Source of the DNA: Brevibacillus brevis | GTDB taxonomy: Bacteria > Bacillota > Bacilli > Brevibacillales > Brevibacillaceae | Reading direction: 5' to 3' | Length of the DNA stretch: 64,000 nt | Assembly: GCF_001039275.2 (NCBI RefSeq) | Contig: NZ_CP030117.1 | Location: 6,179,001-6,243,000 of the forward strand | Shown here: positions 1,807 through 43,362 of the stretch, one piece after another | Layout of the letters: each line of letters opens with the position of its first letter | How positions within the stretch are numbered: the stretch's first letter is position 1 | Made by a program: the position numbers and the translations under genes | Notes under the pieces: generated by a model | Told to the model about the DNA's origin: nothing | What the model saw: the letters and a program-made list of their open reading frames with translations, nothing else | The model's database searches: none

Positions 1807-1888
1807 ACGCTATTCCTCCTCACACCATTTCATCGCACAACTACTTTTTATCACGGAGCGAGGAGTTTTTTCAACATAAAAATATTTA

Positions 1889-1917
1889 ATTATAACACAA
1901 ATAAAAATATTTGTCAA
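1889..1917 (-). promoter_or_regulatory. Strong sigma-A promoter with a palindrome in its spacer (MBL gene)
   Basis: Read on the minus strand: TTGACA (1917-1912), 17-bp spacer, TATAAT (1894-1889) with an extended TGn. All twelve hexamer bases match consensus. The spacer region contains a perfect inverted repeat, ACAAATA-AAAA-TATTTGT (1897-1914). A repressor bound there would block RNA polymerase. The promoter is seen directly; the operator role is inferred. Confidence 0.75.
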
Positions 1918-1942
1918 CATGTTTTCGAGACATCTTCTTGTA

Positions 1943-1992
1943 CAAAAAAGACCTCCGAAATACGCGGTCGCTCCTTCCCAAGCAGACCGCGT
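1943..1992 (-). terminator. Putative terminator of the tubulin/GTPase operon
   Basis: On the minus strand, just after the stop codon at 2008, ACGCGGTC and GACCGCGT pair as an 8-bp stem (1992-1985 with 1969-1962). A TTTTTT run follows about 12 bases later. An alternative short GACC/GGTC stem lies directly against the T run, so the active fold is uncertain. Confidence 0.45.
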
Positions 1993-2007
1993 TGGCATTC
2001 TATTATC

Positions 2008-4506
2008 TTAGGGTGTCGTTGTCTGAACAGGCTGCCCACCCGTTGGTGCATCTTGGCTTTGCTCCCCAAGAACGCCACGGACAGGTTGGATGTCAGGCTC
2101 GTCCACCATCAACCGATAAACCGGTACGAACACAGCCGGTGGGCGGATCGGCTCAGGCTGCGTTTCAGGTGGCTGCACGTGCGTACTCGTACCTTCCCAA
2201 ACCATATAGCCTCCCCATGCTCCGGCACCTAGCAAGACAACTGCGCTGGATATCACCGTAGCTTTGTGCCGAAACAGCTTCACGAGCGGATTGGCCGTCT
2301 CGCTGCGTACCTCGTCCAAAAGCTTGCGGAAATCTGCATTTCGGATCGCATACCACCGTTTTCGCCATTCTTTATCTCGCAATCTCTTGCCTTTCTCCTC
2401 AAGGAAGAAGGCCTTTAACGCTTGTCTGTATGCAGGCAGCAAATACTTTCCTTCGAAAAACATCCGCTGACTCATCGTCCATTGGATAAAGGACAGTGTA
2501 ACGGCTTCCCCACCATTTTGCTGAACATACTCCAGCAATTCTGCAAACTGAAAGCCTTCCTGACCAAAATGATCTTCCCGGTAAAAGACCAGCGGCACCT
2601 GTGGGAACTCGTCAGCATGGAGCGGTTTGCTCAACATATTCTGGATCATTCTTTGCTGCACGGAAATCGCTTCCCGATCCCATTTTCGGAAAAACTCTGC
2701 CGGGTGTGGCGTGCTTCTCTCTTCGTGCAGCTTCGCCAGATTCATGAGCATTTCTTGCTTGTGGCGACTCTCCATATCCAGCGTTCCGAAAAAGCTCTGT
2801 GGCTTCTCCTCCAAGAGAGCGATGAGAACTTGGAAATCATCCTTGGATAGCGTGTCCAGCGCAACGAGCTTCATCAAGGACTTGTCCAGCTCGTCCAACA
2901 GCTCATCGGCATAGCTACGTGCCCCATCGATGTTTTCAAAGAACTGGTGGATGGTAATGGCGGCAGCGAGCTTTTTACGTTCACGCGTAAATAGACGCAG
3001 AACTTTCTCAGTCGTGGTAGAAACAAAAACAGCATTGCGCATAGCTTGTGGTTCTGTTTCCGTCCAAAACCGGATTTCCTTCAGCATCTGGTCCAAACTG
3101 GTCACGGCGGCTACCCGCTCGGTCATATAATCCTCAAAGAGCGGCTTCACCAACTGCGGATAGCCGAAAATCGTGCGCATCATGAAGCCAAACAGCTCCC
3201 GGTTGTTGGACAAATGCTTGTACACCTCTGCCACATAGCTGCTCTGTCTTGCGGTCTTGGCTTTCATCAACACGTCCATCAAGAAGCGGATCAAATCCAT
3301 TTGCAGGCGTTCCTGCCTGATGACACGGTAGGATTCAATCATTTGCTTGATCGTCTCGCCGTCAGGCAACTGTTTGGACGAAAGCGCCTCTACTTCGATC
3401 CGCATCAGCATTTCCTGGAGCTCGATCAGCCGTTTCTTGCGGGTCAAGCTGCTGTGCCCCAGATAGCTGTTCAACGCCTGCCAAACGCCCGCCCGTTTGC
3501 TCTCATACACGGACGTTCGTCCCTTTTCAATCAAATACAGCGCGCACAGCTCGTAGTACGTGCGAAGGTTCATGGCCAGTGCATGATCTGCTCCAGCCAG
3601 CACTTCCTCACAAAACTCGTGAAACGCATCCAGAATCCGTGGCTCATTCACATACTCCCAGGCAAAGTCGAGGTATTCGTGTCCTCCGTCCTGCAAATCG
3701 ACGTTCTGAACGCGACCAAGGGAGAAGTCGAACAAAAAGTCTTTGTCGCTGTGCCCGCCGCCTGGGCGTATGCTTCCTTTTTCCACGAACGTGACGTGGA
3801 TATGCTTCTTGCTCTGCGGCTCGTTGCTAAAAGTGAGAAAACCAAAATGTCTGCGCATCTCATAAGGCAGACAACTGTACAAAATCTCCAATAATTGAGC
3901 AGCACTCTTGGATGAAGCACTAATATCCACATCCAGGCTGATGAACACCTTCTTTTTCGCTGCGAGCGAGGACATCACCGCAAAGAGAAGCTGTTTGAAT
4001 AAACGCTGATCGACGCCCAATTGCCCAAGCAACTGTTTTCGGTCTTGCGACAAGCCTTTTTCAGAAGGGATGTCATCGACGGCAGGAAGCTCCTTACCCG
4101 TTGCATCGTCGTGGCGATCTGCAAAAGTGCTCACTCCGAAGATTTTGCCCGGGTTCTTGATAAACTCATCCCGACGCTCAACTGGAATGACATAGTTGTG
4201 GCTGAAAAACGTATTGCGCTGCCCAGTAAAGTCCGCTCCGACAAATACGCTTCTGCCGAGAACCAACTCTCCCGATTCGGCCTGGAAGCTGACGAGCGCC
4301 TCCGGAAAGAGCGCGAGGTTGCTTTCCGCCCGCTCTTGAAGCTGTCGCGGCGCGTCGTACACGCAAAACGGATGGAGCGCCTTTTTGATGAATTGGTTAT
4401 CCAGCCCTGGCGTTTTGGCGACAGTATCGTATCCTTCGTTCGAACGGAAAACCCCTTGTCGCCCGCGGGTGTAGTACTGCTGCAAAATGGGCTGACGGTT
4501 GCTCAC
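2008..4506 (-). CDS. GAP1-like GTPase-associated protein with a C-terminal membrane anchor
   Basis: 832 residues. The N-terminal part (YYTRGRQGVFRSNEGYDTVA, then LVLGRSVFVGADFTGQRNTFFSHNY) has the look of the GAP1-N2 domain (GTPase-associated protein 1), followed by a GAP1-M-like middle. These families were described by comparative genomics as partners of TRAFAC GTPases in predicted NTP-dependent conflict systems. I recall this from family knowledge and have not computed it. A helical middle, one transmembrane segment (about 751-770) and a 60-residue proline-rich tail follow, so most of the protein should be cytoplasmic and tethered. The GTG start overlaps the GTPase stop by one base (TAGTG), indicating translational coupling to that gene. 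It is the last gene of the minus-strand operon. Confidence 0.65.
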   Translation of the reverse strand: MSNRQPILQQYYTRGRQGVFRSNEGYDTVAKTPGLDNQFIKKALHPFCVYDAPRQLQERAESNLALFPEALVSFQAESGELVLGRSVFVGADFTGQRNTFFSHNYVIPVERRDEFIKNPGKIFGVSTFADRHDDATGKELPAVDDIPSEKGLSQDRKQLLGQLGVDQRLFKQLLFAVMSSLAAKKKVFISLDVDISASSKSAAQLLEILYSCLPYEMRRHFGFLTFSNEPQSKKHIHVTFVEKGSIRPGGGHSDKDFLFDFSLGRVQNVDLQDGGHEYLDFAWEYVNEPRILDAFHEFCEEVLAGADHALAMNLRTYYELCALYLIEKGRTSVYESKRAGVWQALNSYLGHSSLTRKKRLIELQEMLMRIEVEALSSKQLPDGETIKQMIESYRVIRQERLQMDLIRFLMDVLMKAKTARQSSYVAEVYKHLSNNRELFGFMMRTIFGYPQLVKPLFEDYMTERVAAVTSLDQMLKEIRFWTETEPQAMRNAVFVSTTTEKVLRLFTRERKKLAAAITIHQFFENIDGARSYADELLDELDKSLMKLVALDTLSKDDFQVLIALLEEKPQSFFGTLDMESRHKQEMLMNLAKLHEERSTPHPAEFFRKWDREAISVQQRMIQNMLSKPLHADEFPQVPLVFYREDHFGQEGFQFAELLEYVQQNGGEAVTLSFIQWTMSQRMFFEGKYLLPAYRQALKAFFLEEKGKRLRDKEWRKRWYAIRNADFRKLLDEVRSETANPLVKLFRHKATVISSAVVLLGAGAWGGYMVWEGTSTHVQPPETQPEPIRPPAVFVPVYRLMVDEPDIQPVRGVLGEQSQDAPTGGQPVQTTTP

Positions 4507-5771
4507 TACCGCTCCCTCCCCTCGATGTAATCAAGCTGGTGCATCAACCAAATAAACGGTTCATCGACGCGAATCGGCGTCACGACACCACTCACCCTTT
4601 GATTGACGGGATTGCTACCCAGCGCAGATACAGCGAAATAGGCCGTATTCGTAAAGTAAACATCCAACGCGTCTTTAAACGGTCTATCCACCTTTTCGAT
4701 GAATCGGCGAATTTCCCCATCAATGTTCTCGAATTCAGTTGTATTTAAATATTGTTCATGGACGAAATTACGGAAAACGTTGCTGTTGGACTTGATATAT
4801 TCGCCATCGTCTTCCTTGATCAGATGAAGCATGTCGCTCTTCGTCAACACGACAGCAGTCGGAATATGTGTCTTGCTCTGCTCCTGGTAGCCGATAAAGT
4901 TCTCAAACAGTGTAATGACGACCTCACGCGGCTCGTCGTACCTGGCAGTGAATTCCCCTGGCTCATCCCCTGCTTGCAGCATGACCCGATCGCGAATTGT
5001 CTTGATTTGCAGCGGATCGACCAGGAACAGGATGCCAGACGAGTTTTTCACATGCGCCGCATACAGCTCCAAATACTCGCGGTCGACCATTCCCTCGCCT
5101 GCTACGTCGAAAAACACCAGGATCAATGGCGCCTTGTCACTATCCTTGAAAATGAACTGGAAGATAAACGGCTCCTGTCGCTTTTCTTTTTGCGTGGAAT
5201 CGAGCAACTGTCCGCGTTCAAACAGGGGTGCCTCATAGTTCTCCCGGAACTTGCGGCTAATCTGCGCATTGAGCGGCATACACGCTGCATCGAAGTGATT
5301 CGCTGTCGTGTTCTGCAAGGTATGGATCAATGAGGTCATGTAAACGGACTTTCCGACTTGAGACGCCCCGACAATCGAAATAATGTTGCTCGGCGCTTTA
5401 CCCGCCGTAATCGGCAGCTCGTTGTGGCATTTCGGGCACAGTCTGCGCTTGGAAACCATGCCATATCGGTCGGTCACACCTGCGAGGACGTTATCAACGT
5501 ACAAATGGTTTTCCGACGGGATGGATTCCGGATCGATCACTGCTTCCAGCTCATCGATGGCATCCAGTCCGAATTTATCCCGGTATGCATTAAGAATCTC
5601 ATCCTCCTGCAACGCGTAGTCTTCGTCATCCTGACGATGATGTGTGGCACGGAAGACAACTTGGTCCGGTCCGTATTTGGCGAAGCAGTACGGGCAGACA
5701 ATATCGTAAAAAGGAAGCCGTTCCTTGACCTGCGGCTTCTTTTCAAACATGTTTTTCAAAAACGACAGCAT
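4506..5771 (-). CDS. Zinc-ribbon TRAFAC-type GTPase (DO-GTPase2-like)
   Basis: 421 residues. Two CxxC pairs (C26-C29 and C112-C115) are arranged as one split zinc ribbon around an insert of about 80 residues. The GTPase core follows: P-loop GASQVGKS (135-142), G3 motif DVAGEG (222-227) and G4 motif TKSD (310-313). The pattern fits the bacterial TRAFAC-clade GTPases called DO-GTPase2 (inference from motifs). There is no transmembrane segment, so it is cytoplasmic. GGAGGGAAGAGCC precedes the ATG. It is coupled by overlap to the GAP1-like gene, suggesting the two proteins act as a complex. A nucleotide switch controlling the neighbouring tubulin or VWA proteins is plausible but unproven. Confidence 0.75.
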   Translation of the reverse strand: MLSFLKNMFEKKPQVKERLPFYDIVCPYCFAKYGPDQVVFRATHHRQDDEDYALQEDEILNAYRDKFGLDAIDELEAVIDPESIPSENHLYVDNVLAGVTDRYGMVSKRRLCPKCHNELPITAGKAPSNIISIVGASQVGKSVYMTSLIHTLQNTTANHFDAACMPLNAQISRKFRENYEAPLFERGQLLDSTQKEKRQEPFIFQFIFKDSDKAPLILVFFDVAGEGMVDREYLELYAAHVKNSSGILFLVDPLQIKTIRDRVMLQAGDEPGEFTARYDEPREVVITLFENFIGYQEQSKTHIPTAVVLTKSDMLHLIKEDDGEYIKSNSNVFRNFVHEQYLNTTEFENIDGEIRRFIEKVDRPFKDALDVYFTNTAYFAVSALGSNPVNQRVSGVVTPIRVDEPFIWLMHQLDYIEGRER

Positions 5772-5783
5772 GGCTCTTCCCTC

Positions 5784-6419
5784 CTATTCAGGAATCAGTT
5801 CGTACATTTCTCCGTATTTTTTCCCGTCCGTAAAAAACAGGCGGACGACGTCTTTTTTCCTGACCTCAATCTCCGGCATCAGATTGACACCGGGCTCGAG
5901 ATCGCGAATGAAATTGTATCGGGTACCATCATCCTTGTGGGCGGGAGGAGAGCCTTCTTTTTTGACGTAACAGAGTACGTCCCGCGCGATCGGAATCTCT
6001 GAAAAAATGCGTATCTGCAACGATTGATGCTTGCTAAACCAGCTTCCACCCCGTTTGAACGAATAGTAGATTTTGGCCTTTCCTGTGCTGACGTGGATGA
6101 CATGGGCATCCCCGTCTGGCAGGAGCAGAATCGGCTTGCCATTTTCCAATCGGCAAGGAAAGATGCGGTATGTGTACCGGCCGATGCCGTCTGTTTTTTC
6201 CCGCAAGCCTTTGTGGACTTTGTATTCCTCTCGGGTATACAGCTTGAACTGACGATCATCCAGCTCGTTTACGTCAAAAGGGGCGCCAAACTGCGACTTG
6301 TGCACGTACACACACGGAATATCCTGCGCCCAATGCCAATTGAGTACGTATTCGCTCCCTTGATGCTGGCAGGTGACGTCCTTGATGAAGGTTTCTGTTG
6401 TTTCCTCCCGATTAATCAT
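5784..6419 (-). CDS. Uncharacterised beta-rich cytoplasmic protein
   Basis: 211 residues with no family I recognise. It has no signal peptide or membrane segment. Alternating hydrophobic strands (YTYRIFPCRLENGKPILLL, HVIHVSTGKAKIYYSF) and the Trp/Tyr-rich start WHWAQDIPCVYVH suggest two beta-sandwich or barrel-like parts. It sits 12 bases upstream of the GTPase gene and 17 bases downstream of the membrane VWA gene, on the same strand, so it is part of the operon and probably an adaptor in the same complex. Function unknown. Confidence 0.6.
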   Translation of the reverse strand: MINREETTETFIKDVTCQHQGSEYVLNWHWAQDIPCVYVHKSQFGAPFDVNELDDRQFKLYTREEYKVHKGLREKTDGIGRYTYRIFPCRLENGKPILLLPDGDAHVIHVSTGKAKIYYSFKRGGSWFSKHQSLQIRIFSEIPIARDVLCYVKKEGSPPAHKDDGTRYNFIRDLEPGVNLMPEIEVRKKDVVRLFFTDGKKYGEMYELIPE

Positions 6420-6436
6420 GATTCATCATGCTCCCT

Positions 6437-7714
6437 TTACAGATCAAACCGCTTGTTGCTCTGGTTCCCGGCGTCCAAGGCACGGGGGCTTTGTCTGGTG
6501 TTCAGTCTGCGCTTCGCAAAAGACGATCCGCCACTCGTGGAAGCTGGCACAAAGAGAGTGAACAATGTCAGGATGACGGCGAGCAAGGAGCACGCCAGCA
6601 AACGTACCACCATATCGAGCAAGTTGATCGACGACAGACCCATTTCCAAAACGAGTCCGGCTAACAGTCCTGATACCGCCCCGCCAATCGTAAAGCTTTT
6701 GGCCAGATGACGATTGTCAAAAATCAGACCCAGCGCCAAGCCGAGCAAAGCACCGATGATCAGAACACTGACCACACGGGTAATAGCGTAAAACATGCTT
6801 TCTTCTGTCGCTCCTGTCCGCTCAGAAACAATATTGCGGTCTGTTCGACTCATATCGTAAATCTGACCAAAGATTCCTGTCATTTGGTCCGCGTGTTCAA
6901 CATTGAAATAGCTGCCGCCGGTCTCAGCAGCGATCTTTTGCAGCAGCGCCGTTCCATCTGCATCGATTTGGCTCATGCCTACCGTATGGACAATCACCTG
7001 GTTCTGCTTGTATGGCGCGAGTGCGGCTGGGATATCCAGATCGCTATAGCCGTCTGACATCAGCACGACCGTACTGTTTGTCATTTGGTTTGCCTGGAGC
7101 TGATCCAGTCCCGCTTGCAGTGCCAGGTCGATCCGGGTGCCTCCATCCGATCGTGGATATTGGAGCAGCTTCTTCACAACCTCATCCTTCGCAGACTGGC
7201 TACTCAGATCGGTGAGGGGTTGCAGCACATTCGTTTGATCGTGAAACGTAACCACCGCTATATTCATGTCACTGTCCATGCGCTGCACCATGTCGGCTGC
7301 TGCTTTGAACAATTGGTTATCCGGGTCAGACTGCTGCATGCTGCCTGACGTATCCAGAACCATGACAATATTGTTGGCCCCACTGGCCTGTTGAAACGAT
7401 GACCCGTACAGCAACTGAAGCAAGAGCGCCACTACGCCCACCATCAAAAACGTGCTGGGCACGAGCATTTTCCAGGAAAACCCCAGATAGCGTTGCTTCC
7501 AGCCGTCTCCATTCAATCGTGGCGAGATCATTTCCGCAATGAGGCACATCAGTCCTACGAAAAAGGCATATTGACCAAAATAAAGTCCCATTAACAACCA
7601 TTGCGGTATTTCTCCGGACAGCTTGCCGAGCATGACTTCCCCGACCAAAAATCCGATCACGCCACCTACCAAACTACAAACTAGCATGAGTAAGCTTACC
7701 CTTCTCTGACTCAT
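6437..7714 (-). CDS. Membrane protein with an extracytoplasmic VWA domain
   Basis: 425 residues. About three transmembrane helices at the N-terminus (within residues 7-105) are followed by a von Willebrand factor A domain (about 113-290) with an intact MIDAS motif DTSGSM, the following Thr/Asp ligands (GGTRID) and a late MSDG. At least two further helices follow (about 310-395). VWA domains with a MIDAS bind a divalent metal and mediate protein-protein contacts. The gene overlaps the downstream end of the 782-aa gene by four bases (ATGA), so the two are translationally coupled. It probably anchors the tubulin/GTPase assembly in the membrane. Confidence 0.8.
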   Translation of the reverse strand: MSQRRVSLLMLVCSLVGGVIGFLVGEVMLGKLSGEIPQWLLMGLYFGQYAFFVGLMCLIAEMISPRLNGDGWKQRYLGFSWKMLVPSTFLMVGVVALLLQLLYGSSFQQASGANNIVMVLDTSGSMQQSDPDNQLFKAAADMVQRMDSDMNIAVVTFHDQTNVLQPLTDLSSQSAKDEVVKKLLQYPRSDGGTRIDLALQAGLDQLQANQMTNSTVVLMSDGYSDLDIPAALAPYKQNQVIVHTVGMSQIDADGTALLQKIAAETGGSYFNVEHADQMTGIFGQIYDMSRTDRNIVSERTGATEESMFYAITRVVSVLIIGALLGLALGLIFDNRHLAKSFTIGGAVSGLLAGLVLEMGLSSINLLDMVVRLLACSLLAVILTLFTLFVPASTSGGSSFAKRRLNTRQSPRALDAGNQSNKRFDL

Positions 7715-10059: not shown

Positions 10060-10093
10060 GCGTCCTCCTCGATTATCAAACGATCGTGATTGT

Positions 10094-13000
10094 TTATTGC
10101 AGCGTCTTGCGCATATCGTTTACTTTTGACCAAACCTTTTTGTAGAACTGGAACAGCTCTTCACCGTTTACGTATTCGTCGCGGTCGTATTCCAGATCAT
10201 TTTTCGTTTCTTGGAAAGCAGATGCGATTTCTTCGAGTTTTGCCAGCAACTGCTGCGTATCCTCTGCTGAAGTCATCGCGTCACTGCGTTTTGCAGCTTT
10301 GCGCTGGATGGTTGCCATGCTCTTGTGATCCAATGCGCGGTATTTTTCATAGATCGCAAATTCAACATGCTTGTTGACTTTCATCAGGTTGATGAACGGC
10401 TCCCACGCATCTTCTTCCTCATCCTTGTCGTAGACGTAGAGCGCACCGCGCTTGCAAATCGTCCCTGTGTAAAGGGCTTCGATGAATCGGGTCACCAGCT
10501 CTTCTTCGTCCTTGATGGCACCTACAATCTGCTCCAGCTCCTGGATTTTGGCCTCGATTTCTTCGTATTTGCGTACTTCTTGTTCGATCAGGCGAATCTG
10601 CTCTGGATAGCGAATCAGGTTTTCTTTTGCCATCTCTTCATTGATACTGCCGAACACATCACGCGTAAATTCTTGCTCCAGACCATCTTTCATGAAGCCT
10701 TTGAGCTCAACCAATGCACGCTTGATCTCTCCAGGACTCAGCTTGGTCGCGTCTCCTTGTGCTTGGTGCTTAGCCAAGAAAGTGGCCAGCGAGAACGGCT
10801 TCGTCACGATGGATTCATAGCGGTTGCTGGTCTGGCTGTCGCTGCCTTTTTCGCGGATGGCTCCGTAGCGCACCGCACGGTCAAACAATTCGCGTACTTT
10901 GGCGTTGTACGCTTTGATCCGTCCGTTTTGGTACGTATCTCCCCACGATTTTTCCGGAATAGGCGATGGGAGGTACGTCCAGTTGTTCTTTTCGGTTTGA
11001 ACGAGGTGGCGTCCGATACCCTCTCTGTCCAGAATTGTACGTTCGTAGCTTTCCTCGTAGACCTTCAACGGTGTGTAAGCGAACAGTGGAACACCGTTTT
11101 TCGTATTCAGCCAGAAGATGCGGTTTTTGACTTCGCTTTCTTTGACGGTAAAGCGCGATCCGCTAATCGCTGTATTTTGATAGTTTTTAATCCCCTTCAA
11201 GATCGATGGTGCCTTCAGGGGCACGGATACAAAGCCCCAGGAAGGGAAGTGCATATTGCCGAGATTATTGCTCAGATGGAAGACCGGAATCGCCTCTTCA
11301 TCCAGCTTGCTCGCAATCTTGCGCTCTACGATGCGATCGAGTGTCTCGTCCTGACCGTATTTGATCACGAGGAATTCTTCCATCGACTTGGTGATCAGCT
11401 CACCGAACTTCTCCGAGAGGAATTCGGAAATCGAGCTGACGATATCCAGCTCCTGCTCTTTGACCCACTGATCGGAATGCCGCAGCAGCTCGCTGGTGAA
11501 ATCACGGATCAGGTCATCCGCCTCTTTTTGCTCCAGGATGTTGCTGACTACCTTGGAGATATCCGGCACGCTGACGATGTTCCAGTAGTATGTCTTGTTG
11601 CCAGTGCGGTCGCTCTCTTCTCCTCCGTTGATCAGGATGTCGCCGTTTTGCTCGAAAATTTGGTTGAGTGCGTTCAAAATCTCAGTAAATACGTTATAAA
11701 TGCGGTTGTTTTCTGCATTCAACAAACGGTGCAGCTCTTCGTAGAATTCGATCATTTGCTCCAGCTTTTCCTGATCAGCCAGGAGCTGGTATTCGTTGAT
11801 CTTCGCTTCGATGTAGCTGTTTTTCTTCTTCTCCTTGGAGATGAAAGCACTGCGGGCATCGCCCAGCTTTTCATTCGCATTCTCTCTTGCGCCCTCGATC
11901 TCAGGCGGGAAGCTCTCCAAATTCGCCTTGAGGCTCTCGATGTAGGAGAGGATCATTTTCATCAGGCAGTAGCCTTTGTCCGAATGAATCAGACGGGACG
12001 CATAGAAAGGTCCTTGCTGCGGGTGCAGGAATACACGCGTGATCATTTCGCCAAAAACAGAGATCATGTCGCCTGGCATCTGCTTTTTGGACTTGATGTA
12101 CGCTTCGCGTGCTTTGGCGAGATAGCCTTGCTCCAGCTCGTGATCGATGCTCACGACTTGCTGAGTGATCACGTTGCCGTAGTTCAGACGTTCGCTGTTC
12201 TCATAGCCTGGCAACGGTTCAGGAACGCGCTCCTCGAACTTGCGAGAAATCGAGTCGATGTCGATTCCGAGCTTGCGGGCGAATTTCTCCGCATCTTCTT
12301 GCGTTGGTGCTACCGTGAACATTTTTTCCATCTTTTTAAACAAGCGATATGCCAAGTACGTTGTCATCTCTTCGATCGGCAAGACAGCAGAGGAAGCACC
12401 GATGACGTTGTATTGGTAGTTGGCTGCGTACGCTTTTGGCATCTGGTTGATGTTCGTACGGATGTTGCTGATATAGTCGTGGATCGCAAACTCTTCACCC
12501 GAGCGCTTTTCTTCGCTCGCCATGAAGTTCGTAATGTTCTCCGCGGTTACGTTCATGCAGTAATCGTAGGCGTTTTCCAGTGCTTTGCCTTCCAGATTGG
12601 TCGCAGAAATCAAATGGCACAGGTTGAATGGTGGCATTGGCGATTGCACGGTAAGTACATTGCCGTATTGCTGGCGGAAACGCTCATTGCGCTCATCCGC
12701 ATTCATCCAGTAGTCCAGCTCTTTTAATGCCGCGTAACCGTTTTTCATGATGTAGTCGCGTGTGTGCGAGCTGAGGCTCTTGTTCGAAAGGTTGACGTCA
12801 GGTGTGAACAGGTAGCCCAACGTATTCACCTTGTCTACCCCTGCACTGCCAAAGTCGCGCTCCAAAATGCCTCGTACGATATAGGCGATGTCGAGGAAGC
12901 AACCGCTCCCCGTTCCCCCGGATAAACCACTCAGGAGAAATACAGTCAGCTTTTTGTTCGTGCCTTCGCACAGCATCTTGACCTTTTTCTCAATCGTTTG

Positions 13001-13483
13001 GACGACTTGCGTAATTTTTGTAAAGAGAAGAAGTCGACCTGCCTGGCGTACACCCGATGCTCCGCTGATTCCGTCCGTAATCGTCAGCTCTGGCGAGAGC
13101 CAATCGGTGATGTACGGCTCCAGAATGCTGCGATTCTGCAACACACCGCCGATCTCAGGATTGGACAGGAGTACGAACTCCGTCACTGGATCGAGCCCGA
13201 TGCCCTTGTACTTTTTGTTGCGGTCATGCTCGTTCGTTTCAAACGCGATAAATTCAATATTGTCCGGCTTTTCCTTGCGCTTCTTGGAAAGCTGGTCAAC
13301 CGGCAGCTTGAAGCGTCTGTTCACTTGGTATTTCAGGCGCAAAAGCGCGTCAATTCCTGTACCGCCAAGACCGATAACGAGCATCGGGTTATCGATTGTA
13401 TCAACGCGAATCTTGTCACTGACGATTCCTCCGCCGAGGGATACGTCCAATTGTTGAATGTGTTCTCTCACGACTGCTTTCAT
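10094..13483 (-). CDS. Giant tubulin-like GTPase (Tubulin_2 family)
   Basis: 1129 residues, far longer than FtsZ (about 350-400). The N-terminus has IGLGGTGIDALLRLKYQV (GLGGTG at 38-43). The tubulin/FtsZ nucleotide-binding signature GLSGGTGSG is at 186-194, followed by the usual helix. The remainder is unlike FtsZ: long helical blocks (about 540-650 and 960-1050, the latter including YEEIEAKIQELEQIV) and a conserved middle ending before residue 900. It matches the 'tubulin like' family found in bacterial multi-gene systems with VWA proteins. GTP binding is well supported by motif; polymerisation is not. AGGAGTGAGTCGATT precedes the ATG. It probably acts in the cytoplasm, recruited by the flanking VWA membrane proteins. 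Confidence 0.85.
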   Translation of the reverse strand: MKAVVREHIQQLDVSLGGGIVSDKIRVDTIDNPMLVIGLGGTGIDALLRLKYQVNRRFKLPVDQLSKKRKEKPDNIEFIAFETNEHDRNKKYKGIGLDPVTEFVLLSNPEIGGVLQNRSILEPYITDWLSPELTITDGISGASGVRQAGRLLLFTKITQVVQTIEKKVKMLCEGTNKKLTVFLLSGLSGGTGSGCFLDIAYIVRGILERDFGSAGVDKVNTLGYLFTPDVNLSNKSLSSHTRDYIMKNGYAALKELDYWMNADERNERFRQQYGNVLTVQSPMPPFNLCHLISATNLEGKALENAYDYCMNVTAENITNFMASEEKRSGEEFAIHDYISNIRTNINQMPKAYAANYQYNVIGASSAVLPIEEMTTYLAYRLFKKMEKMFTVAPTQEDAEKFARKLGIDIDSISRKFEERVPEPLPGYENSERLNYGNVITQQVVSIDHELEQGYLAKAREAYIKSKKQMPGDMISVFGEMITRVFLHPQQGPFYASRLIHSDKGYCLMKMILSYIESLKANLESFPPEIEGARENANEKLGDARSAFISKEKKKNSYIEAKINEYQLLADQEKLEQMIEFYEELHRLLNAENNRIYNVFTEILNALNQIFEQNGDILINGGEESDRTGNKTYYWNIVSVPDISKVVSNILEQKEADDLIRDFTSELLRHSDQWVKEQELDIVSSISEFLSEKFGELITKSMEEFLVIKYGQDETLDRIVERKIASKLDEEAIPVFHLSNNLGNMHFPSWGFVSVPLKAPSILKGIKNYQNTAISGSRFTVKESEVKNRIFWLNTKNGVPLFAYTPLKVYEESYERTILDREGIGRHLVQTEKNNWTYLPSPIPEKSWGDTYQNGRIKAYNAKVRELFDRAVRYGAIREKGSDSQTSNRYESIVTKPFSLATFLAKHQAQGDATKLSPGEIKRALVELKGFMKDGLEQEFTRDVFGSINEEMAKENLIRYPEQIRLIEQEVRKYEEIEAKIQELEQIVGAIKDEEELVTRFIEALYTGTICKRGALYVYDKDEEEDAWEPFINLMKVNKHVEFAIYEKYRALDHKSMATIQRKAAKRSDAMTSAEDTQQLLAKLEEIASAFQETKNDLEYDRDEYVNGEELFQFYKKVWSKVNDMRKTLQ

Positions 13484-13496
13484 AATCGACTCACTC

Positions 13497-15290
13497 CTAG
13501 ACGATGTAATCTACATATAAGGACTTGTTCACATTCGTTAACGAAATTTTGATGCGATCGTTTTTCTTCAGCTCTTTGCCTTTGCTTGCATCGAGTACAC
13601 GTCCGGCCTTTTCGATTCGACAGCTCGAACGGTTTTCGATGATCAGCGTATCGTTTTTTCCTGGTAAAAAGATGACTTTCTCTGTCTCCGCAAACTCAGG
13701 GGCGAGCTGCAAGAGTTGGTGCAGCTTCACTTTTCCTTTGAACGCGTTCAGTTTCTTGTACTGCGGATTGGACTTTTCCCCTGTATCCTCATCCACGATC
13801 TCGATGGCGATTTGGCCCGCGAAGCCCTTGTTCGCCTTGCGATAGATCGACAGTGCGTACAAGCCTGCACCGATCAACAGGATGAGAACCACGGTACCTC
13901 CTACTACGGTCATCCATGGAAATGGTTTCGATTCTGCCGCAGGATCAGTGGTTGTGTTCGGCTTGCTCGCTCCAGAACCTGCTGTTTTCGCAGCGTCTAC
14001 AAGGAATGGCTTTGTCTCCCGGTAAAAACTGGTGTCTTCTGCCTTGATTTTTATCTCGTACGTATGGTCAGACGGGATTGTAAAGCTGCCTTCGAACCCG
14101 CTGCCCGTATTGTTCAGGGCGACCTCATTCGTCTTATTGTCCGTCTTGTCATTGACGATTAATGTTGCCTTCATTTGTTTGTACAGATCAGGACTCGCTA
14201 CCTTCTGTCCGTTTGAAACAAGTGCAGCCTTGATCGGTACGACATCGCCAGCTTTGAAGCTCTTGGCTGTGACTGGCTCCATCTCCAATTGCAGATCGTA
14301 GTTGAAGATGAGGTTAATATCGATTTTTTCCTTCGGGGCACCTTTTACCTGTAGCTTCCAATCGCCCTGCTGTGGCTTGACCAGCTTGATCATCGTGTAC
14401 GCATTGGATTTCGACAGTCTGACCTGGTTGGAAGGAATTTGTACCTCCTTGCCAGCCGGATCGAACAGCTTCACTTCCACTGCTTTTTGCGACATGATCG
14501 AGATGTTGGCTTCCATGACGCTGCCATTCGGGATGGGGATCGGAATTTCCTGAGCCTGACCGTTTGCAACGAAGCTTTTCACCGGGACAACCTTCAGCTT
14601 CAGGTGATTCGCAAAGATTTCGCTCAAGATTTGCGGGAGCTTGTCCGCTGTGCTCGTTTCAAAAAATTTACCATTTGTCTCCGCAGCAATCTGCTGTAGT
14701 GTCGAGCGGTTAAGCTGACCGTCTGCGTTCAAGCCAATCGTGTAAATCGGATAGCCTTTGTCTTTGGCCTCTTTCACTGCTTGCTGTAGCTCTTGATCTG
14801 ACTGTGCTTGGGTACGGCTTGATGCTTTGTTCAAATAGTTGTTTCCGTCTGCCAACAGCACGATAATCGGTGCATTGTTTGGATTGCGTCCTGCATCAAG
14901 GATTTTTACTGCTTCCGTTACCCCGACAGCGATATCGGTGTAGGCTCCTTTTTGCAGACTGTCGATGAAGGCTTTGATATCATTCTTGTCTTCTTCGGAA
15001 TTAATCTCGAGCAGTGCTTTTTCCCGCTCGATCTTGTCGGTATAGGCCACTACACCAACCTTGTTCGCTTGGATCGATGTCATGTCGACGAACATTTTCA
15101 TCGCTTCGTTACTGACTTTGTTCTTATCGCTTTGGGTCATGGAGTTGCTGACGTCCACGACCAGGACAGCGTCCATATTGTTTCCGCTCGTTTGCGCAAA
15201 GGCTGGGTGAGTGACGGAGAGGACACTGACCAAGAGCAGGGCGAGACATGCTACGTATCGACATAACATTCGGAATCGTATTATTTGCAT
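13497..15290 (-). CDS. Exported VWA-domain protein with a cytoplasmic tail
   Basis: 597 residues, first gene of the minus-strand operon. The signal peptide spans about 1-32 (ending HPAFA-QTS). A VWA domain (about 38-220) has the MIDAS variant DVSNSM and LLADGNNY. An Ig-like or beta-sandwich region (about 225-430), one transmembrane helix (about 456-480) and a cytoplasmic C-terminal domain of about 110 residues with a small beta fold (IIENRSSCRIEKAGRVLDA, resembling an FHA-like fold) follow. The topology allows it to relay an outside contact to the GTPases inside. AAAGGAG lies seven bases before the ATG. An ECF-like promoter at 15429-15457 would transcribe it. Confidence 0.8.
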   Translation of the reverse strand: MQIIRFRMLCRYVACLALLLVSVLSVTHPAFAQTSGNNMDAVLVVDVSNSMTQSDKNKVSNEAMKMFVDMTSIQANKVGVVAYTDKIEREKALLEINSEEDKNDIKAFIDSLQKGAYTDIAVGVTEAVKILDAGRNPNNAPIIVLLADGNNYLNKASSRTQAQSDQELQQAVKEAKDKGYPIYTIGLNADGQLNRSTLQQIAAETNGKFFETSTADKLPQILSEIFANHLKLKVVPVKSFVANGQAQEIPIPIPNGSVMEANISIMSQKAVEVKLFDPAGKEVQIPSNQVRLSKSNAYTMIKLVKPQQGDWKLQVKGAPKEKIDINLIFNYDLQLEMEPVTAKSFKAGDVVPIKAALVSNGQKVASPDLYKQMKATLIVNDKTDNKTNEVALNNTGSGFEGSFTIPSDHTYEIKIKAEDTSFYRETKPFLVDAAKTAGSGASKPNTTTDPAAESKPFPWMTVVGGTVVLILLIGAGLYALSIYRKANKGFAGQIAIEIVDEDTGEKSNPQYKKLNAFKGKVKLHQLLQLAPEFAETEKVIFLPGKNDTLIIENRSSCRIEKAGRVLDASKGKELKKNDRIKISLTNVNKSLYVDYIV

Positions 15291-15311
15291 AAGAGCTCCT
15301 TTTCTTGTTCG

Positions 15312-15455
15312 TTACAAAGAATTTGTGAGGTGTTGCAAAGAAAGTAAGACTATGACACTATTACCACTAGATTCAAGAAGTAGAAGACGGATGATAAAAA
15401 AGTACTAGAATGATTGCCCCTTACTCGTAATACGATACGACATGATTCTTTGTTA
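15312..15455. repeat. CAAAGAA repeats in the divergent control region
   Basis: TTACAAAGAAT (15312-15322) and TTGCAAAGAAA (15333-15343) are direct copies 21 bp apart, i.e. two helical turns. An inverted copy, ATTCTTTGTTA (15445-15455), lies at the other side of the intergenic region between the two divergent operons. This is a candidate binding site for a shared regulator; no regulator gene is in the cluster. Confidence 0.45.
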
Positions 15456-15457
15456 CA
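15429..15457 (-). promoter_or_regulatory. ECF-sigma-like promoter of the VWA/tubulin operon
   Basis: On the minus strand: TGTAAC (15457-15452), 17 bp, CGTATT (15434-15429). The -35 equals the TGTAAC recorded for Bacillus sigma-X-type promoters and the -10 begins CGT. A leader of about 130 nt would result. Prediction only; no good sigma-A pair was found for this operon. Confidence 0.4.
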
Positions 15458-15487
15458 GATTTCGACAACTTCGTTAGGAGAAATTTT

Positions 15488-15637
15488 ATGTTAACTTACT
15501 TTCTGTTGTTTGCGGCTTTTTTGCTGCTAGCGGTCCGATTCCTCAAGCTGCTGCGACTGAAACGGCGCAATCTCTCCAACGCCGAAATCGATCAGCATCT
15601 TCATGCCTTACTGAATGAGAAGAGGGATTCGCCATGA
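15488..15637 (+). CDS. 49-residue single-pass membrane protein
   Basis: ATG at 15488 is preceded by AGGAG at 15476-15480, seven bases upstream. The product is MLTYFLLFAAFLLLAVRF followed by a basic stretch (KLLRLKRRN) and a short polar tail. It has one transmembrane helix with a positive cytoplasmic side. The TGA stop overlaps the ATG of the next gene (ATGA), a typical operon junction that supports real translation. It is the first gene of the plus-strand arm of the tubulin/GTPase cluster. Function unknown; a regulatory micropeptide for one of the neighbouring membrane proteins is possible. Confidence 0.7.
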   Translation: MLTYFLLFAAFLLLAVRFLKLLRLKRRNLSNAEIDQHLHALLNEKRDSP

Positions 15638-16569
15638 GAAAACGAATCGGCGTACAATTTCGCAAAACCCGTAAAACCACTCATACGTATGAAAGAATTC
15701 AAGCGTGCACGCGATGCCATACATACCACGTCCTGTGGGAGACGCATTGTGAGACTTGCGGGAGCGCCTATATACCGATCCGCCAGGTTTCCCACGCTGT
15801 GACGCGCCGCTATGTGCAAACGCGCTTCTTGCTCTTGGGCTTGTTCGTCTGTCTTGCTGTCCTCTCTGCGGAGACCGTTTTGCAATTAGCTCTCGCAGGA
15901 GGTATTGGCTGTGTGTTGTTCGTCCTGTTTTTCGTGATGCAGAAAAAATATGGCACTTATGAAAGAGACGTACAATTCCAACACTTTTTGACGAGGGAAA
16001 TGGAGACGATCAAGAAGTCACTCCTCCGTCATTTGGAGGAAGTGGGCAACGACGTCAAAGAAGGACATCTTAAGGAAGCTTATGAAAAAACGAGAGAGAT
16101 CGGACATTTCATCGATTCCGATACGATCAAGATACGCAAGATCATGTTCCTCAATCATTACGTCCTGCGCAAAGACATGGAGCTGGAGCTCGAAACGCTC
16201 ATCCCGTCTATGTACGACAAGGACTTCATGGAATATGTCCGCGAAGTCATCAAGGTCCAGCCTTCGCTCGTCAAAAATTCCGTGCTTACTTATGTTAGAC
16301 GTTATAAAAATCAAATATTGTTGCTGGAAAACGGGGATCAGCTCATCGGTCAAGTGGCAGGTGCAGCGCTCCGCATGAAGTCTTATGTGGACGAGTATCA
16401 GGATCTGATTATCGAATTTATCGATTTTTTGCCTCGCGAGCGCCTTTTACGATTGGCAAAAATGGTACAAACCCATAAGGATGAAGGTTGGGAACAACTA
16501 TATCATTCTACCAAAAACAGGGTAGATACGCATTACGCGTTTGACCCGGATTTCAAAGGCTTACTGTGA
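15634..16569 (+). CDS. Zinc-ribbon membrane protein
   Basis: 311 residues. An N-terminal four-Cys zinc ribbon (CTRCHTYHVLWETHCETCG, about 25-43) is followed by two closely spaced transmembrane helices (about 65-110) and a cytoplasmic helical domain of about 190 residues. That domain has no recognisable enzymatic motif. The paired CxxC echoes the zinc ribbon of the GTPase encoded on the other arm. It is joined by ATGA overlap to the 49-aa gene and by overlap or near-contact to the 593-aa gene downstream. It is probably a membrane scaffold of the same system; function inferred from context only. Confidence 0.7.
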   Translation: MRKRIGVQFRKTRKTTHTYERIQACTRCHTYHVLWETHCETCGSAYIPIRQVSHAVTRRYVQTRFLLLGLFVCLAVLSAETVLQLALAGGIGCVLFVLFFVMQKKYGTYERDVQFQHFLTREMETIKKSLLRHLEEVGNDVKEGHLKEAYEKTREIGHFIDSDTIKIRKIMFLNHYVLRKDMELELETLIPSMYDKDFMEYVREVIKVQPSLVKNSVLTYVRRYKNQILLLENGDQLIGQVAGAALRMKSYVDEYQDLIIEFIDFLPRERLLRLAKMVQTHKDEGWEQLYHSTKNRVDTHYAFDPDFKGLL

Positions 16570-16583
16570 AGGAGGAGCCTTTT

Positions 16584-18347
16584 ATGTTGCCTATCTCTCC
16601 CTATCATAGGTCCCTCTGGGTCCGTAATATTTTTCTCGGGCTCTTTGCCTTGGGCTTGATCGCCGTTCTGTTGAAGCTCGGATTCGGGTACAAGCAGATT
16701 GCGCTGTATAAACAGGCAAAGACGTTTTATGAGCAAAAGAACCTGCTGCAAGCCGAGAAAACCTTTTCTCGTGCACATGATATGGCTGTCCTGTCCTACG
16801 GCGATGACGAATGGAATTCCATCATGTTCCAACTTTCTTCTATCCGTACTGAGCTGGAGGGGCTTCAACAGCACTCGCACGCGGCCATTTCAGAAAAGAA
16901 GGTCGCAGAAATCGGTGCGGTCTATGAACACTATCAAGCTGTCAAAAAGAATTACCAGAATCAAAAAGACGTACCGGCGATGTTTTTCCAGCAATTGTCC
17001 GCTCATTTGGGTATGGATAAGAGCTTTTCCGATTATTACTTGAATGCCTTGCAAACAGCGAAGGCGCAGGCACAATCGAATCTCGAAAAGGAAAACTATC
17101 AGGACGAATCTTTCATTGAAACACTCCTTGCAGTTCCAGATGAGTACTATGGCGGCAAAAAGAAGAAGCAGGCTGAGCTCTCGGCCCTTTTCCAGAACTA
17201 TGAAAAGACGAAGCTGCGGGCGCTGATCGCTTCGGCTTCTTTTGAAGAAGTCATCACCAAAACGGCTACAAGCATTCGCCATTACGAAAAACTGGGTATC
17301 GAGACAAATTGGTTAGTGGATCAGTTGGAAAAGTATGCGCTAGCTAAAATCAAGGAAGTCATCCGATCGAAGGATTTGAGTGCCTTTGTTGACATGGCAG
17401 CCGCCTATCGCAAAATCGAGGATGTGCTGTCCAGTGATTCACCTGTCCTTGATTCGATCACCCGCTATCTGGAAGGCAAGCTCAAGCAGGCAGAACAATA
17501 CATCAAATCGTTCGAGTTCACCAAAGCGCGTGAATTGTACGAGCAGTTGAATCCGCTACAGGATACGGCTACGCTCCTGTCTGATCTGGAAAAGCTCTGG
17601 TTGGAATACGATCCAGCACGCTTATTGCAATTGAGATATCCAGACAGAACGTTCACTGACATGCTCTCCGGCACAGATCGCTGGGGAGCAAAGCTTTACG
17701 CATTTGGACTCTCTAACGCAGATCAACGTCTTTATTTTGCAGCGAAAATGCCAAATGACTCACTCCTCTATCTCGATCAACCGCTGGATGTGGACATGAA
17801 ATCGGCTAAGGCTAAGATCGACGATACTCTCGGGAGTAAAGAAAAGCCTGTAATTATCGTGAGTGCTTCCGGCAAGGAACGTGCTAACGCCTACGCAGCA
17901 TTGTCTCCGAATTTGACAAAAGAGTCACTCGATAAGCGCTTTTCGGTCGAGGCGGATGAACTCAGTGTAGAAGACTCCGAGCATGTGATCATGAAAAATA
18001 CGGTAGGGAAAGGTGAAAACGAAATCGCTTTGTTCAAGCTCGAGGACAATGGCTTGGCTTACATCGAAAAGCTGGCTGATTTGGAGGAGAGTTCCGAAGA
18101 AACGACCGAGGTAACTGGGTCAGAAGACGCGACTTCCCCTGCCGACGGGTCGACAGAAGCGACAGATCAAACTCCCCCTGCCACTCAAAAAATCGATGTT
18201 TTCGCGGGTCCAGGTGAAGAATATGAGAAGATCGGTCAGGTAGTAGCAGATGGTTCCTTCCAAGTCATCGCAGATCTGAATGGCTGGTACCAGATTGTGT
18301 TTGATGGAAAAGAAGGCTGGATACGCGCTACCGAATCAACGCCATAA
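16584..18347 (+). CDS. Membrane-anchored helical protein with a C-terminal SH3 domain
   Basis: The ATG at 16584 is chosen because GGAGGAG (16571-16577) lies six bases upstream; the GTG at 16566 would place this ribosome site inside the gene. The product has 587 residues: short cytoplasmic N-terminus, one transmembrane helix (about 13-34), a long helical extracytoplasmic part with TPR-like repeats starting KQAKTFYEQKNLLQAEKTF, and a Thr/Glu-rich linker (about 500-525). It ends in a bacterial SH3 domain (VFAGPGEEYEKIGQV ... GWYQIVFDGKEGWI), often used to hold cell wall. It ends the plus-strand operon, with a terminator at 18366-18430. It may connect the tubulin/GTPase assembly to peptidoglycan (inference). 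Confidence 0.75.
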   Translation: MLPISPYHRSLWVRNIFLGLFALGLIAVLLKLGFGYKQIALYKQAKTFYEQKNLLQAEKTFSRAHDMAVLSYGDDEWNSIMFQLSSIRTELEGLQQHSHAAISEKKVAEIGAVYEHYQAVKKNYQNQKDVPAMFFQQLSAHLGMDKSFSDYYLNALQTAKAQAQSNLEKENYQDESFIETLLAVPDEYYGGKKKKQAELSALFQNYEKTKLRALIASASFEEVITKTATSIRHYEKLGIETNWLVDQLEKYALAKIKEVIRSKDLSAFVDMAAAYRKIEDVLSSDSPVLDSITRYLEGKLKQAEQYIKSFEFTKARELYEQLNPLQDTATLLSDLEKLWLEYDPARLLQLRYPDRTFTDMLSGTDRWGAKLYAFGLSNADQRLYFAAKMPNDSLLYLDQPLDVDMKSAKAKIDDTLGSKEKPVIIVSASGKERANAYAALSPNLTKESLDKRFSVEADELSVEDSEHVIMKNTVGKGENEIALFKLEDNGLAYIEKLADLEESSEETTEVTGSEDATSPADGSTEATDQTPPATQKIDVFAGPGEEYEKIGQVVADGSFQVIADLNGWYQIVFDGKEGWIRATESTP

Positions 18348-18365
18348 TCAGTTTGCTGAATCAGG

Positions 18366-18430
18366 AGCTCCCCCTCGCGATCATGACACACCTTTTTTGA
18401 TCGGCGTCAGGAGCTTTTTCTCATTTTTTC
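18366..18430 (+). terminator. Rho-independent terminator after the SH3 gene
   Basis: AGCTCC (18366-18371) pairs with GGAGCT (18410-18415), with an inner CGCGATCA/TGATCGGCG stem, and is followed by TTTTTCTCATTTTTT. It closes the plus-strand arm of the cluster. Confidence 0.6.
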
Positions 18431-18433
18431 ACA

Positions 18434-18462
18434 TTGCGTTAGGTGTCAGATTCTTCTATAAT
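18434..18462 (+). promoter_or_regulatory. Sigma-A promoter of the LysE-family gene
   Basis: TTGCGT (18434-18439), 17-bp spacer, TATAAT (18457-18462). The start codon is at 18500 with AAGGAG upstream. Ten of twelve hexamer bases match consensus. Confidence 0.75.
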
Positions 18463-18499
18463 CTATTCTTATTTTATAGTAGGCAAGGAGTGAGAAGAG

Positions 18500-19132
18500 A
18501 TGTTTGGAATCGTTCATTATGAAGCATTTCTGATGACCGCCATCATGTTGAACCTGATACCCGGCTCAGACACGATGTACATCATCACCCGCAGCATTTC
18601 GCAAGGTAAACAGGCAGGTATTCTTTCGGTTCTCGGCATTTTGACAGGCTCACTCATTCACACACTCTTGGCTGCTTTCGGCTTGTCGCTCCTTTTGGCG
18701 CAATCCATCGTACTTTTTAACATCGTCAAAATATTGGGGGTCGCCTATCTCGTCTATTTGGGCATTCGCATGCTCATGACGAAGGAATCACCAGCTTTTG
18801 ACGCAGCCGATTCCAAGAAACTGAAGGGTGAAAAGGTCTATCTGCAAGCGATCCTGACAAGTGTCACGAATCCAAAGGTCGCTCTGTTTTTCATCGCCTT
18901 CCTCCCGCAATTTGTGAGCGCGACGGAAGCCGGACCACTCCCTTTTCTTATTCTTGGCCTTACTTTTACCGTTACAGGTGGCATCTGGTGTAGTCTTCTC
19001 GCCCTGTTTGCTTCCTTCGCTACACAAAAATTGCGCAGTAATCAGAAGTTCTCTGTCATTCTCAACAAGCTGACGGGGATTGTTTTTATCGGGATGGGGC
19101 TGAATCTGTTGCGGGCGAAAGCGAATCCTTAG
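18500..19132 (+). CDS. LysE/RhtB-family amino-acid exporter
   Basis: 210 residues with about six transmembrane helices. The family signature is near the N-terminus (NLIPGSDTMYIITRSISQG, where most members have PGPxxL), followed by GxxxGxxxH (LTGSLIHTLLAAFGL). VAYLVYLGIRML, the charged loop and TSVTNPKVALFFIAFLPQFV are all typical. Members export amino acids or related metabolites using the proton gradient; the substrate here is unknown. It has its own promoter. The stop codon TAG lies inside the AGGAGG ribosome site of the next gene, so the two are co-transcribed. Confidence 0.85.
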   Translation: MFGIVHYEAFLMTAIMLNLIPGSDTMYIITRSISQGKQAGILSVLGILTGSLIHTLLAAFGLSLLLAQSIVLFNIVKILGVAYLVYLGIRMLMTKESPAFDAADSKKLKGEKVYLQAILTSVTNPKVALFFIAFLPQFVSATEAGPLPFLILGLTFTVTGGIWCSLLALFASFATQKLRSNQKFSVILNKLTGIVFIGMGLNLLRAKANP

Positions 19133-20006: not shown

Positions 20007-20036
20007 GTTAACGGTGCGAAAAGGGAGTTGAAGAAT

Positions 20037-20654: not shown

Positions 20655-20710
20655 CACTTCCTAACTGAAAGACGGAATGAGCTAGTTTTTATTTAGTACA
20701 GGAGGAGCAT

Positions 20711-43335: not shown

Positions 43336-43362
43336 CCAACTACCAGGGATGGAGTGAACACC

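Follow-up and report, generated by a model that had tools for sequence, protein, structure and literature searches.

A fixed, inherited ten-gene tubulin, DO-GTPase and VWA unit in Brevibacillus brevis, with a predicted pseudo-tubulin

We analyzed a 64,000-nucleotide stretch of Brevibacillus brevis DNA (NZ_CP030117.1, positions 6,179,001 to 6,243,000; hereafter the window, in which all coordinates below are counted), focusing on a locus of ten genes at 2008-18347 that encodes a Tubulin_2/FtsZl1-type tubulin, a DO-GTPase with a GAP1 partner, two VWA proteins and several membrane proteins. This kind of system is already in print: Kaur et al. 2020 (PMC7159879) described a Firmicute tubulin theme, and Makarova and Koonin 2010 (PMC2875224) FtsZl1 loci, both of which the locus fits. 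What we add is that the locus is a fixed, inherited ten-gene unit, and that its 782-aa protein is, by its structural model, a predicted pseudo-tubulin, having a tubulin fold that has lost the GTP-binding G-box.

Gene content of the two divergent arms

All ten open reading frames (ORFs) described in an initial annotation of this DNA were confirmed; they form two divergent arms, one of seven genes on the minus strand (2008-15290) and one of three on the plus strand (15488-18347). The tight couplings it pointed out are likewise evident from the coordinates: the GAP1 and DO-GTPase genes have base 4506 in common (TAGTG), and 4-base overlaps occur at 7711-7714, 15634-15637 and 16566-16569. The features are as follows, with the basis of each assignment in parentheses.

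2008-4506, minus strand: GAP1 protein, 832 aa, with GAP1-N2 and GAP1-M domains and a predicted C-terminal transmembrane segment at 751-769 (Pfam, hydropathy)
4506-5771, minus strand: DO-GTPase, 421 aa, with zinc-ribbon knuckles C26-C29 and C112-C115 (Pfam, motifs)
5784-6419, minus strand: predicted double fibronectin-III (FN3) protein, 211 aa (AlphaFold2, Foldseek, VIA)
6437-7714, minus strand: VWA_TM, membrane VWA protein, 425 aa, VWA domain at 115-283 (Pfam, hydropathy)
7711-10059, minus strand: pseudo-tubulin by predicted fold, 782 aa, without a G-box (AlphaFold2, VIA, motifs)
10094-13483, minus strand: Tubulin_2/FtsZl1-type tubulin, 1129 aa (Pfam, T1 and G-box motifs)
13497-15290, minus strand: VWA_sec, secreted-type VWA protein, 597 aa (Pfam, hydropathy)
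15291-15487: intergenic region common to both arms (alignment)
15488-15637, plus strand: 49-aa peptide with a single transmembrane segment (ORF)
15634-16569, plus strand: zinc-ribbon membrane protein, 311 aa, transmembrane hairpin at about 61-100 (zinc-ribbon pattern, hydropathy)
16566-18347, plus strand: membrane-anchored 593-aa protein with one N-terminal transmembrane segment and, in this lineage, an SH3 domain at 545-587 (Pfam, hydropathy)

The Pfam scan of the window covered nine of the ten proteins, the 49-aa peptide being left out. Most of the families named from the sequence (tubulin, GTPase/GAP1, VWA) pass this profile search, including the tubulin and GTPase motifs; an NCBIfam scan of the locus proteins gave no match reaching its cut-offs. 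Judged from hydropathy only, both tubulins, the DO-GTPase and the FN3 protein are predicted to be cytosolic, and GAP1, VWA_TM, VWA_sec, the 49-aa peptide, the zinc-ribbon hairpin protein and the 593-aa protein to lie in the membrane. The VWA domains would thus face outward and the GTP-binding proteins inward.

Linkage, inheritance and selection

The gene-neighborhood survey comprised 129 loci: the window, 48 others and the best 80 of 287 relatives confirmed in a scan, these 80 titled Brevibacillus, Paenibacillus or Bacillus sp. Some genomes occur twice in this set, which holds 120 distinct tubulin sequences. Because 207 weaker relatives fall outside it, we claim linkage for this group only. 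All seven genes of the minus arm occur, in the same order, in 129/129 loci (in 25, GAP1 runs off the available stretch). In the divergent arm, the zinc-ribbon gene was found in 128/129 loci, the 49-aa gene in 127/129 and the 593-aa gene in 93/129. The 36 misses of the last consist of one contig end (L110), one locus without the whole arm (L154), and 34 loci with 4.5 kb or more of DNA where the gene could have appeared. L102 is among the loci where the 593-aa gene was undetected, and split ORFs occur in a few loci (L055, L073, L112, L117 and L171).

The ten genes had been read as one assembly, and their linkage and co-inheritance in the same order across these loci agree with that. We consider it extremely improbable that they are unrelated neighbors without a common function. 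The two-strand layout is all that speaks for this; the order is the same in 129 loci, whereas complete or partial copies of the five flanking genes tested turned up in just 13 of the 28 loci from the window's own family, the remaining 15 having none. Tubulin, DO-GTPase and GAP1-N2 are also absent together from non-carriers: GAP1-N2 occurs once per genome in 10/10 tubulin carriers and in 0/5 of the non-carriers tested, and a DO-GTPase search, run without positive genomes alongside, gave no match in the ten tubulin-less genomes of the order. The 1129-aa tubulin itself is encoded in 29/39 genomes of the order and 42/299 sampled genomes of the class, representing 7/118 genera.

Purifying selection acts on all ten genes. 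In nine close loci, the median ratio of nonsynonymous to synonymous substitution rates (dN/dS) was 0.00 for the 49-aa peptide, which showed no amino-acid change across the 32 close pairs measured, and otherwise ranged from 0.011 (DO-GTPase) through 0.038 (1129-aa tubulin) to 0.15 (593-aa protein). In a broader sample of seven loci, the medians were 0.017-0.173, and dN/dS was ≤0.25 in every pair measured. Altogether, the arrangement is more than chance, since it recurs in related loci and every gene in it is selectively maintained.

The place of the locus is also stable. It shares a contig with dnaA in 21/21 genomes (one to three contigs each), and the distance between them, calculated by arithmetic with contigs taken as circular, is 0.07-0.33 Mb in 10 genomes of the window's own family (f1) and 0.44-0.59 Mb in 8 genomes of genus g33. 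In 3 genomes of genus g10 the locus lies on the other side of dnaA, about 1 Mb away; side and distance are alike within each of the three groups. The tubulin and DO-GTPase share 68-72% identity with their counterparts in five genomes of family f4 (FtsZ, 77-78%), and their trees split f1 from f4 as the FtsZ tree does, with the exception of G207 (locus L073). This genome is of another family and shows 8% contamination. Its tubulin and DO-GTPase group with f1, which may reflect transfer or contamination. The VWA_TM and zinc-ribbon ORFs of the G207 copy are split.

The two tubulins and their partner proteins

The tubulin signature first noticed in the 1129-aa protein is upheld by a Tubulin_2 match of 6.5e-78 (Pfam) and by the T1 loop and G-box, which are kept in 120/120 distinct sequences, the latter as GLSGGTGSG, GISGGTGSG or GLAGGTGSG. 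An acidic stretch, EEFAIHDY, is invariant in the same 120 sequences and may be T7, an assignment of our own. A search by sequence returned no solved structure for this protein, the DO-GTPase or GAP1. FtsZ is encoded elsewhere in 12/12 genomes, so we rejected the idea that the tubulin substitutes for it. A phage or plasmid origin was also rejected, on the tubulin query only, which gave no match in phage records and three distant plasmid matches, all to Thermus-type plasmids. A viral structure library gave no match at E < 0.001, several of its top rows being phage tubulin or FtsZ proteins.

The 782-aa protein had been described as having an unknown fold, which the structural predictions now replace. 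Its Tubulin_2 match (0.0034) is below the Pfam cut-off, and matches at E ≤ 0.01 were found in 28/56 family members scanned. The AlphaFold2 model (predicted local distance difference test score, pLDDT, 85.2; predicted TM-score, pTM, 0.72) aligns by VIA with BtubB 2btq at Z 22.0 over 312 residues (root-mean-square deviation, rmsd, 3.8), such that model residues 31-780 span BtubB chain residues 2-407; CetZ 3zid is matched as well (Z 22). Identity to known tubulins over aligned residues is 4-10%, and the Foldseek match to CetZ2 (E 2.8e-4) has TM-scores of 0.21 and 0.43. In the model, a tubulin fold formed by residues ~30-334 and ~699-781 is interrupted by a helical insertion of ~360 residues, which contains a 71-residue helix at 502-572. 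The DSSP order of residues 33-334 fits tubulin S1 to H9, and the strands and helices at 699-768 would be S8-H10-S9-S10-H11, the element names again being our own assignment. The coiled coil, judged solely from the long predicted helix, would then be an insertion in the tubulin fold and not a tail. The G-box was found in 0/118 sequences of this family, and a pattern drawn from the loop that replaces it matches 104/118. The two locus proteins are paralogous into the start of the insertion (hhalign E 7e-5), and plausibly, by their motifs, just the 1129-aa one can bind GTP.

The likeness to FtsZl1/Tubulin_2 loci as described in passages of PMC2875224 is close: a tubulin signature, a coiled coil, a helical C-terminus, and vWA and GTPase neighbors, for which membrane remodeling was proposed. 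An alignment figure there includes a Brevibacillus brevis sequence, with the family not named in its legend. The 1129-aa protein has the FtsZl1/Tubulin_2 signature loop and profile, whereas the 782-aa protein lacks the loop. According to the same paper, FtsZl1 proteins are not reliably alignable past H5 and their T6-H7 elements are not identifiable; the predicted model of the paralogue, in contrast, closes the tubulin fold after its long insertion. The 782-aa protein shares a predicted tubulin fold with BtubA/BtubB, CetZ, TubZ and FtsZ (Z 22 to BtubB and CetZ), and differs from them in the lost G-box, the ~360-residue insertion, and membership of a ten-gene membrane system.

These features bear on whether filaments form at all. 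The tubulin-fold proteins could instead act as GTP switches, either monomeric or dimeric, within a transmembrane sensor, with the helical insertions as scaffolds. In favor of this reading, PMC2875224 allows for the possibility that FtsZl1 proteins do not form filaments, Jekely as its reviewer suggested transport or signaling, and one of the two tubulins here is without a G-box. Against it, the predicted 782-aa fold includes the C-terminal part, and the 1129-aa protein still has T1, T4 and the possible T7. We regard such a filament-free relay as unlikely.

A zinc-ribbon GTPase with a GAP1-like partner had been proposed, and both identifications are supported. The former matches Pfam DO-GTPase1/2 (3.6e-9 and 1.3e-8), and its P-loop GxSxxGKS, FFDVAGE and [TA]KSD motifs all occur in 110/110 distinct sequences. 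GAP1 matches GAP1-N2 (2.8e-47) and GAP1-M (6.4e-31), domains found together in 36/36 members scanned (of 71 representatives); by hydropathy it has one transmembrane segment near the C-terminus, followed by a short proline-rich polar tail. Its gene adjoins the DO-GTPase gene in 129/129 loci, including the 25 in which it is cut by the end of the available stretch.

Both VWA proteins have Pfam matches (3.1e-21 for VWA_TM, 3.4e-19 for VWA_sec) and, as anticipated, a metal-ion-dependent adhesion site (MIDAS) DxSxS, kept in 117/117 and 121/121 sequences, respectively. Two further MIDAS-residue patterns are kept in 84 and 70 of 117 VWA_TM and in 121 and 92 of 121 VWA_sec sequences. Hydropathy of VWA_TM and its homologues predicts about six transmembrane segments with the VWA domain outside. 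VWA_sec consists of an N-terminal hydrophobic signal, the VWA domain (40-222), beta domains, a transmembrane segment (462-480) and a cytosolic tail (481-597) with many invariant columns among 18 sequences. Its beta region has a weak MG2 match below the cut-off and no YtkA match among those listed (Pfam).

The 211-aa protein, also first taken to be of unknown fold, has no transmembrane segment by hydropathy and no Pfam match, either in the window or in 63 family members (0/63). Its AlphaFold2 model (pLDDT 92.8, pTM 0.68) is nearly all beta. Foldseek matched it to NCAM FN3 1-2 at E 9.2e-4, with a TM-score of only 0.31-0.33; VIA gave Z 9.8 for domain 1 (96 residues, rmsd 2.7) and Z ~8-9 for both domains (~165 residues, rmsd 4.5-10), the large deviation being expected if the hinge differs. 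The protein is thus predicted from its model to be two tandem fibronectin-III domains.

In the divergent arm, a zinc-ribbon pattern occurs in 119/119 sequences of the 311-aa family; TackOD1 was rejected for this protein, as the match is below the Pfam cut-off and covers the zinc ribbon only. The 593-aa protein has an SH3_3 domain (1.8e-9), which was found in 11/34 family members scanned (of 68 representatives), so that wall binding via SH3 would be a local, lineage-specific feature. The second arm of the initial annotation, with its 49-aa peptide, zinc-ribbon and SH3-ended proteins, is therefore present, but the SH3 ending is not general. The same applies to the transmembrane machine it proposed: the predicted topology of VWA outside and GTP-binding proteins inside agrees with it, but an SH3 contact would not be general.

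The intergenic region has conserved blocks in Brevibacillus-type loci. ATTACCACTA occurs in 21/118 distinct intergenic regions (mean of 0.1 in composition shuffles), and the shorter TTACCACT in 21/30 Brevibacillus-type regions and 0/88 others. The heptamer TGTCGAA, which we take to be a Spo0A-box-like motif, is present in 23/30 and 8/88, or 31/118 overall, where composition shuffles gave a mean of 2.9. Since related sequences are not independent, we treat it as a lead only. Among the promoter-like sites listed by a scan, none lies within 15291-15487, and those across 1700-18600 were no more numerous than in shuffles. A known RNA element was rejected, as there was no Rfam match at the gathering score.

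Proposed function and neighboring genes

In the passages of PMC7159879 on GAP1-N2 systems, these combine a DO-GTPase with FN3 components, and a Firmicute theme is described that has two tubulin genes with a coiled coil, two vWA genes, one product carrying a fused YtkA domain, and a GAP1 with a polar extension. The present locus shares the zinc-ribbon DO-GTPase beside a GAP1-N2/M protein with a polar C-terminal extension, as well as the two tubulins and two vWA proteins, one of them a multi-transmembrane protein with an extracellular vWA domain. The FN3 component is recognized here by predicted fold alone, not by sequence. The coiled coil is C-terminal in that description, while in our predicted 782-aa model it is an insertion, and those passages do not mention the divergent arm or the loss of the G-box in the second tubulin. 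The combination, for which the initial annotation knew of no experimental role, is largely covered by passages of the two papers.

We propose, at a probability of roughly one half, that the locus encodes a membrane-anchored, GTP-driven tubulin scaffold that links envelope contacts to a cytoplasmic assembly as inherited cell machinery, its most likely task being envelope or membrane remodeling. The 1129-aa tubulin, with T1 and T4 intact, would bind GTP and polymerize, and the 782-aa protein would be its nucleotide-dead partner, either as the inert half of a heterodimer or as an end cap that limits the filament. The DO-GTPase, whose motifs are intact, and the membrane-anchored GAP1 may form a switch that permits assembly, with the predicted double-FN3 protein as a cytosolic adaptor. 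The two outside VWA/MIDAS domains may read a ligand or tension, which the cytosolic tail of VWA_sec would relay. Finally, the divergent arm (transmembrane peptide, zinc-ribbon transmembrane hairpin and anchored extracellular protein) could tie the complex to membrane and wall.

The proposed function differs from that in PMC7159879, where such loci are predicted to be conflict systems, and the evolutionary pattern seen here suggests otherwise. In an anti-phage or abortive-infection type system, the FN3 and VWA proteins would sense an invader, the DO-GTPase and GAP1 would set a threshold, and the response, e.g. depolarizing or remodeling the membrane, would fall to the tubulins and membrane proteins. 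The defining parts are present (by Pfam, and by predicted fold for FN3), the published prediction comes with a statistical association between GAP1-N2 systems and multicellular habit, fast evolution is seen in GAP1, FN3 and extracellular parts, and the unit is dispensable. However, Pfam recognized no effector domain in the nine window proteins or in 36 GAP1, 34 593-aa-family, 18 VWA, 63 FN3 and 56 pseudo-tubulin members, although an undescribed effector is possible. The gene set is constant, not variable, in the 129 loci, the pattern is consistent with vertical inheritance at a stable chromosomal place, and dN/dS is low throughout. PADLOC matched none of the ten proteins at 1e-3; relaxing the limit to 0.1 gave three weak matches, the best at 0.0039. 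In ten neighboring ORFs it gave one match, LmuA (1.9e-7) in a metallo-beta-lactamase-fold protein, and a defence island was rejected on this result. Constant content, vertical pattern, purifying selection and the lack of a recognized effector are better explained by inherited machinery than by a defence cassette that is swapped, and we consider a conflict system rather unlikely.

Several points weigh against the proposed scaffold. Those who defined GAP1, in the passages of PMC7159879 cited, read such systems as conflict systems, and the open-licence literature gave no experiment on GTP binding, filaments or phenotype for them; passages of PMC11237479 and PMC11217815 hold nothing bearing on function. 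The tubulin is absent from 10/39 genomes of the order, mostly small (median 6.2 Mb for carriers vs 4.25 Mb for non-carriers, p 5e-5), which makes the unit dispensable. Several parts evolve fast, with identity to the window's proteins of 19-97% for GAP1 and 16-93% for the 593-aa protein, as would also fit arms-race sensors. Added domains, Cadherin-like in 3/36 and Glucodextran_B-type in 3/36, occur in GAP1 members, with no further Pfam domain beyond these and GAP1-N2/M in the 36. The profile match between the C-termini of the 1129-aa protein and the pseudo-tubulin is not significant (hhalign E 0.12), so in the former the fold's closing half is only a pattern seen by eye. Foldseek TM-scores are low (~0.2-0.4) for both the 782-aa and 211-aa models.

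A more specific form of the scaffold is a tentative possibility: a hetero-tubulin machine with one obligatorily nucleotide-dead subunit and long helical insertions in both, its filament tied to VWA sensors and the wall, which would serve as a vegetative cytoskeleton of Paenibacillus and Brevibacillus relatives beside FtsZ and not in defence. In the literature searched, this bacterial tubulin class, known since 2010, is known only from sequence, and the locus is a compact, invariant version of it. It could help to establish whether GAP1-N2 systems serve immunity or the cell envelope, a question that affects how predictions of conflict systems ought to be interpreted. The interest rests on the pseudo-tubulin, the novelty being limited by the two earlier papers.

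Close to the conserved unit but not belonging to it, the window encodes at 20028-25642 (plus strand) a sortase-domain protein and, after it, a 1643-aa LPXTG-anchored protein that contains collagen-binding and SpaA repeats. A bacterial nitric oxide synthase oxygenase (Pfam, 1.9e-176) lies at 30966-32063 (minus strand), and a single protein encoded at 37892-39973 (minus strand) contains both a Lamin Tail Domain and a glycerophosphodiester phosphodiesterase domain. At 42058-45147 (plus strand), a Dyp-type peroxidase gene adjoins one for an FTR1 iron permease, perhaps as an iron-uptake pair.

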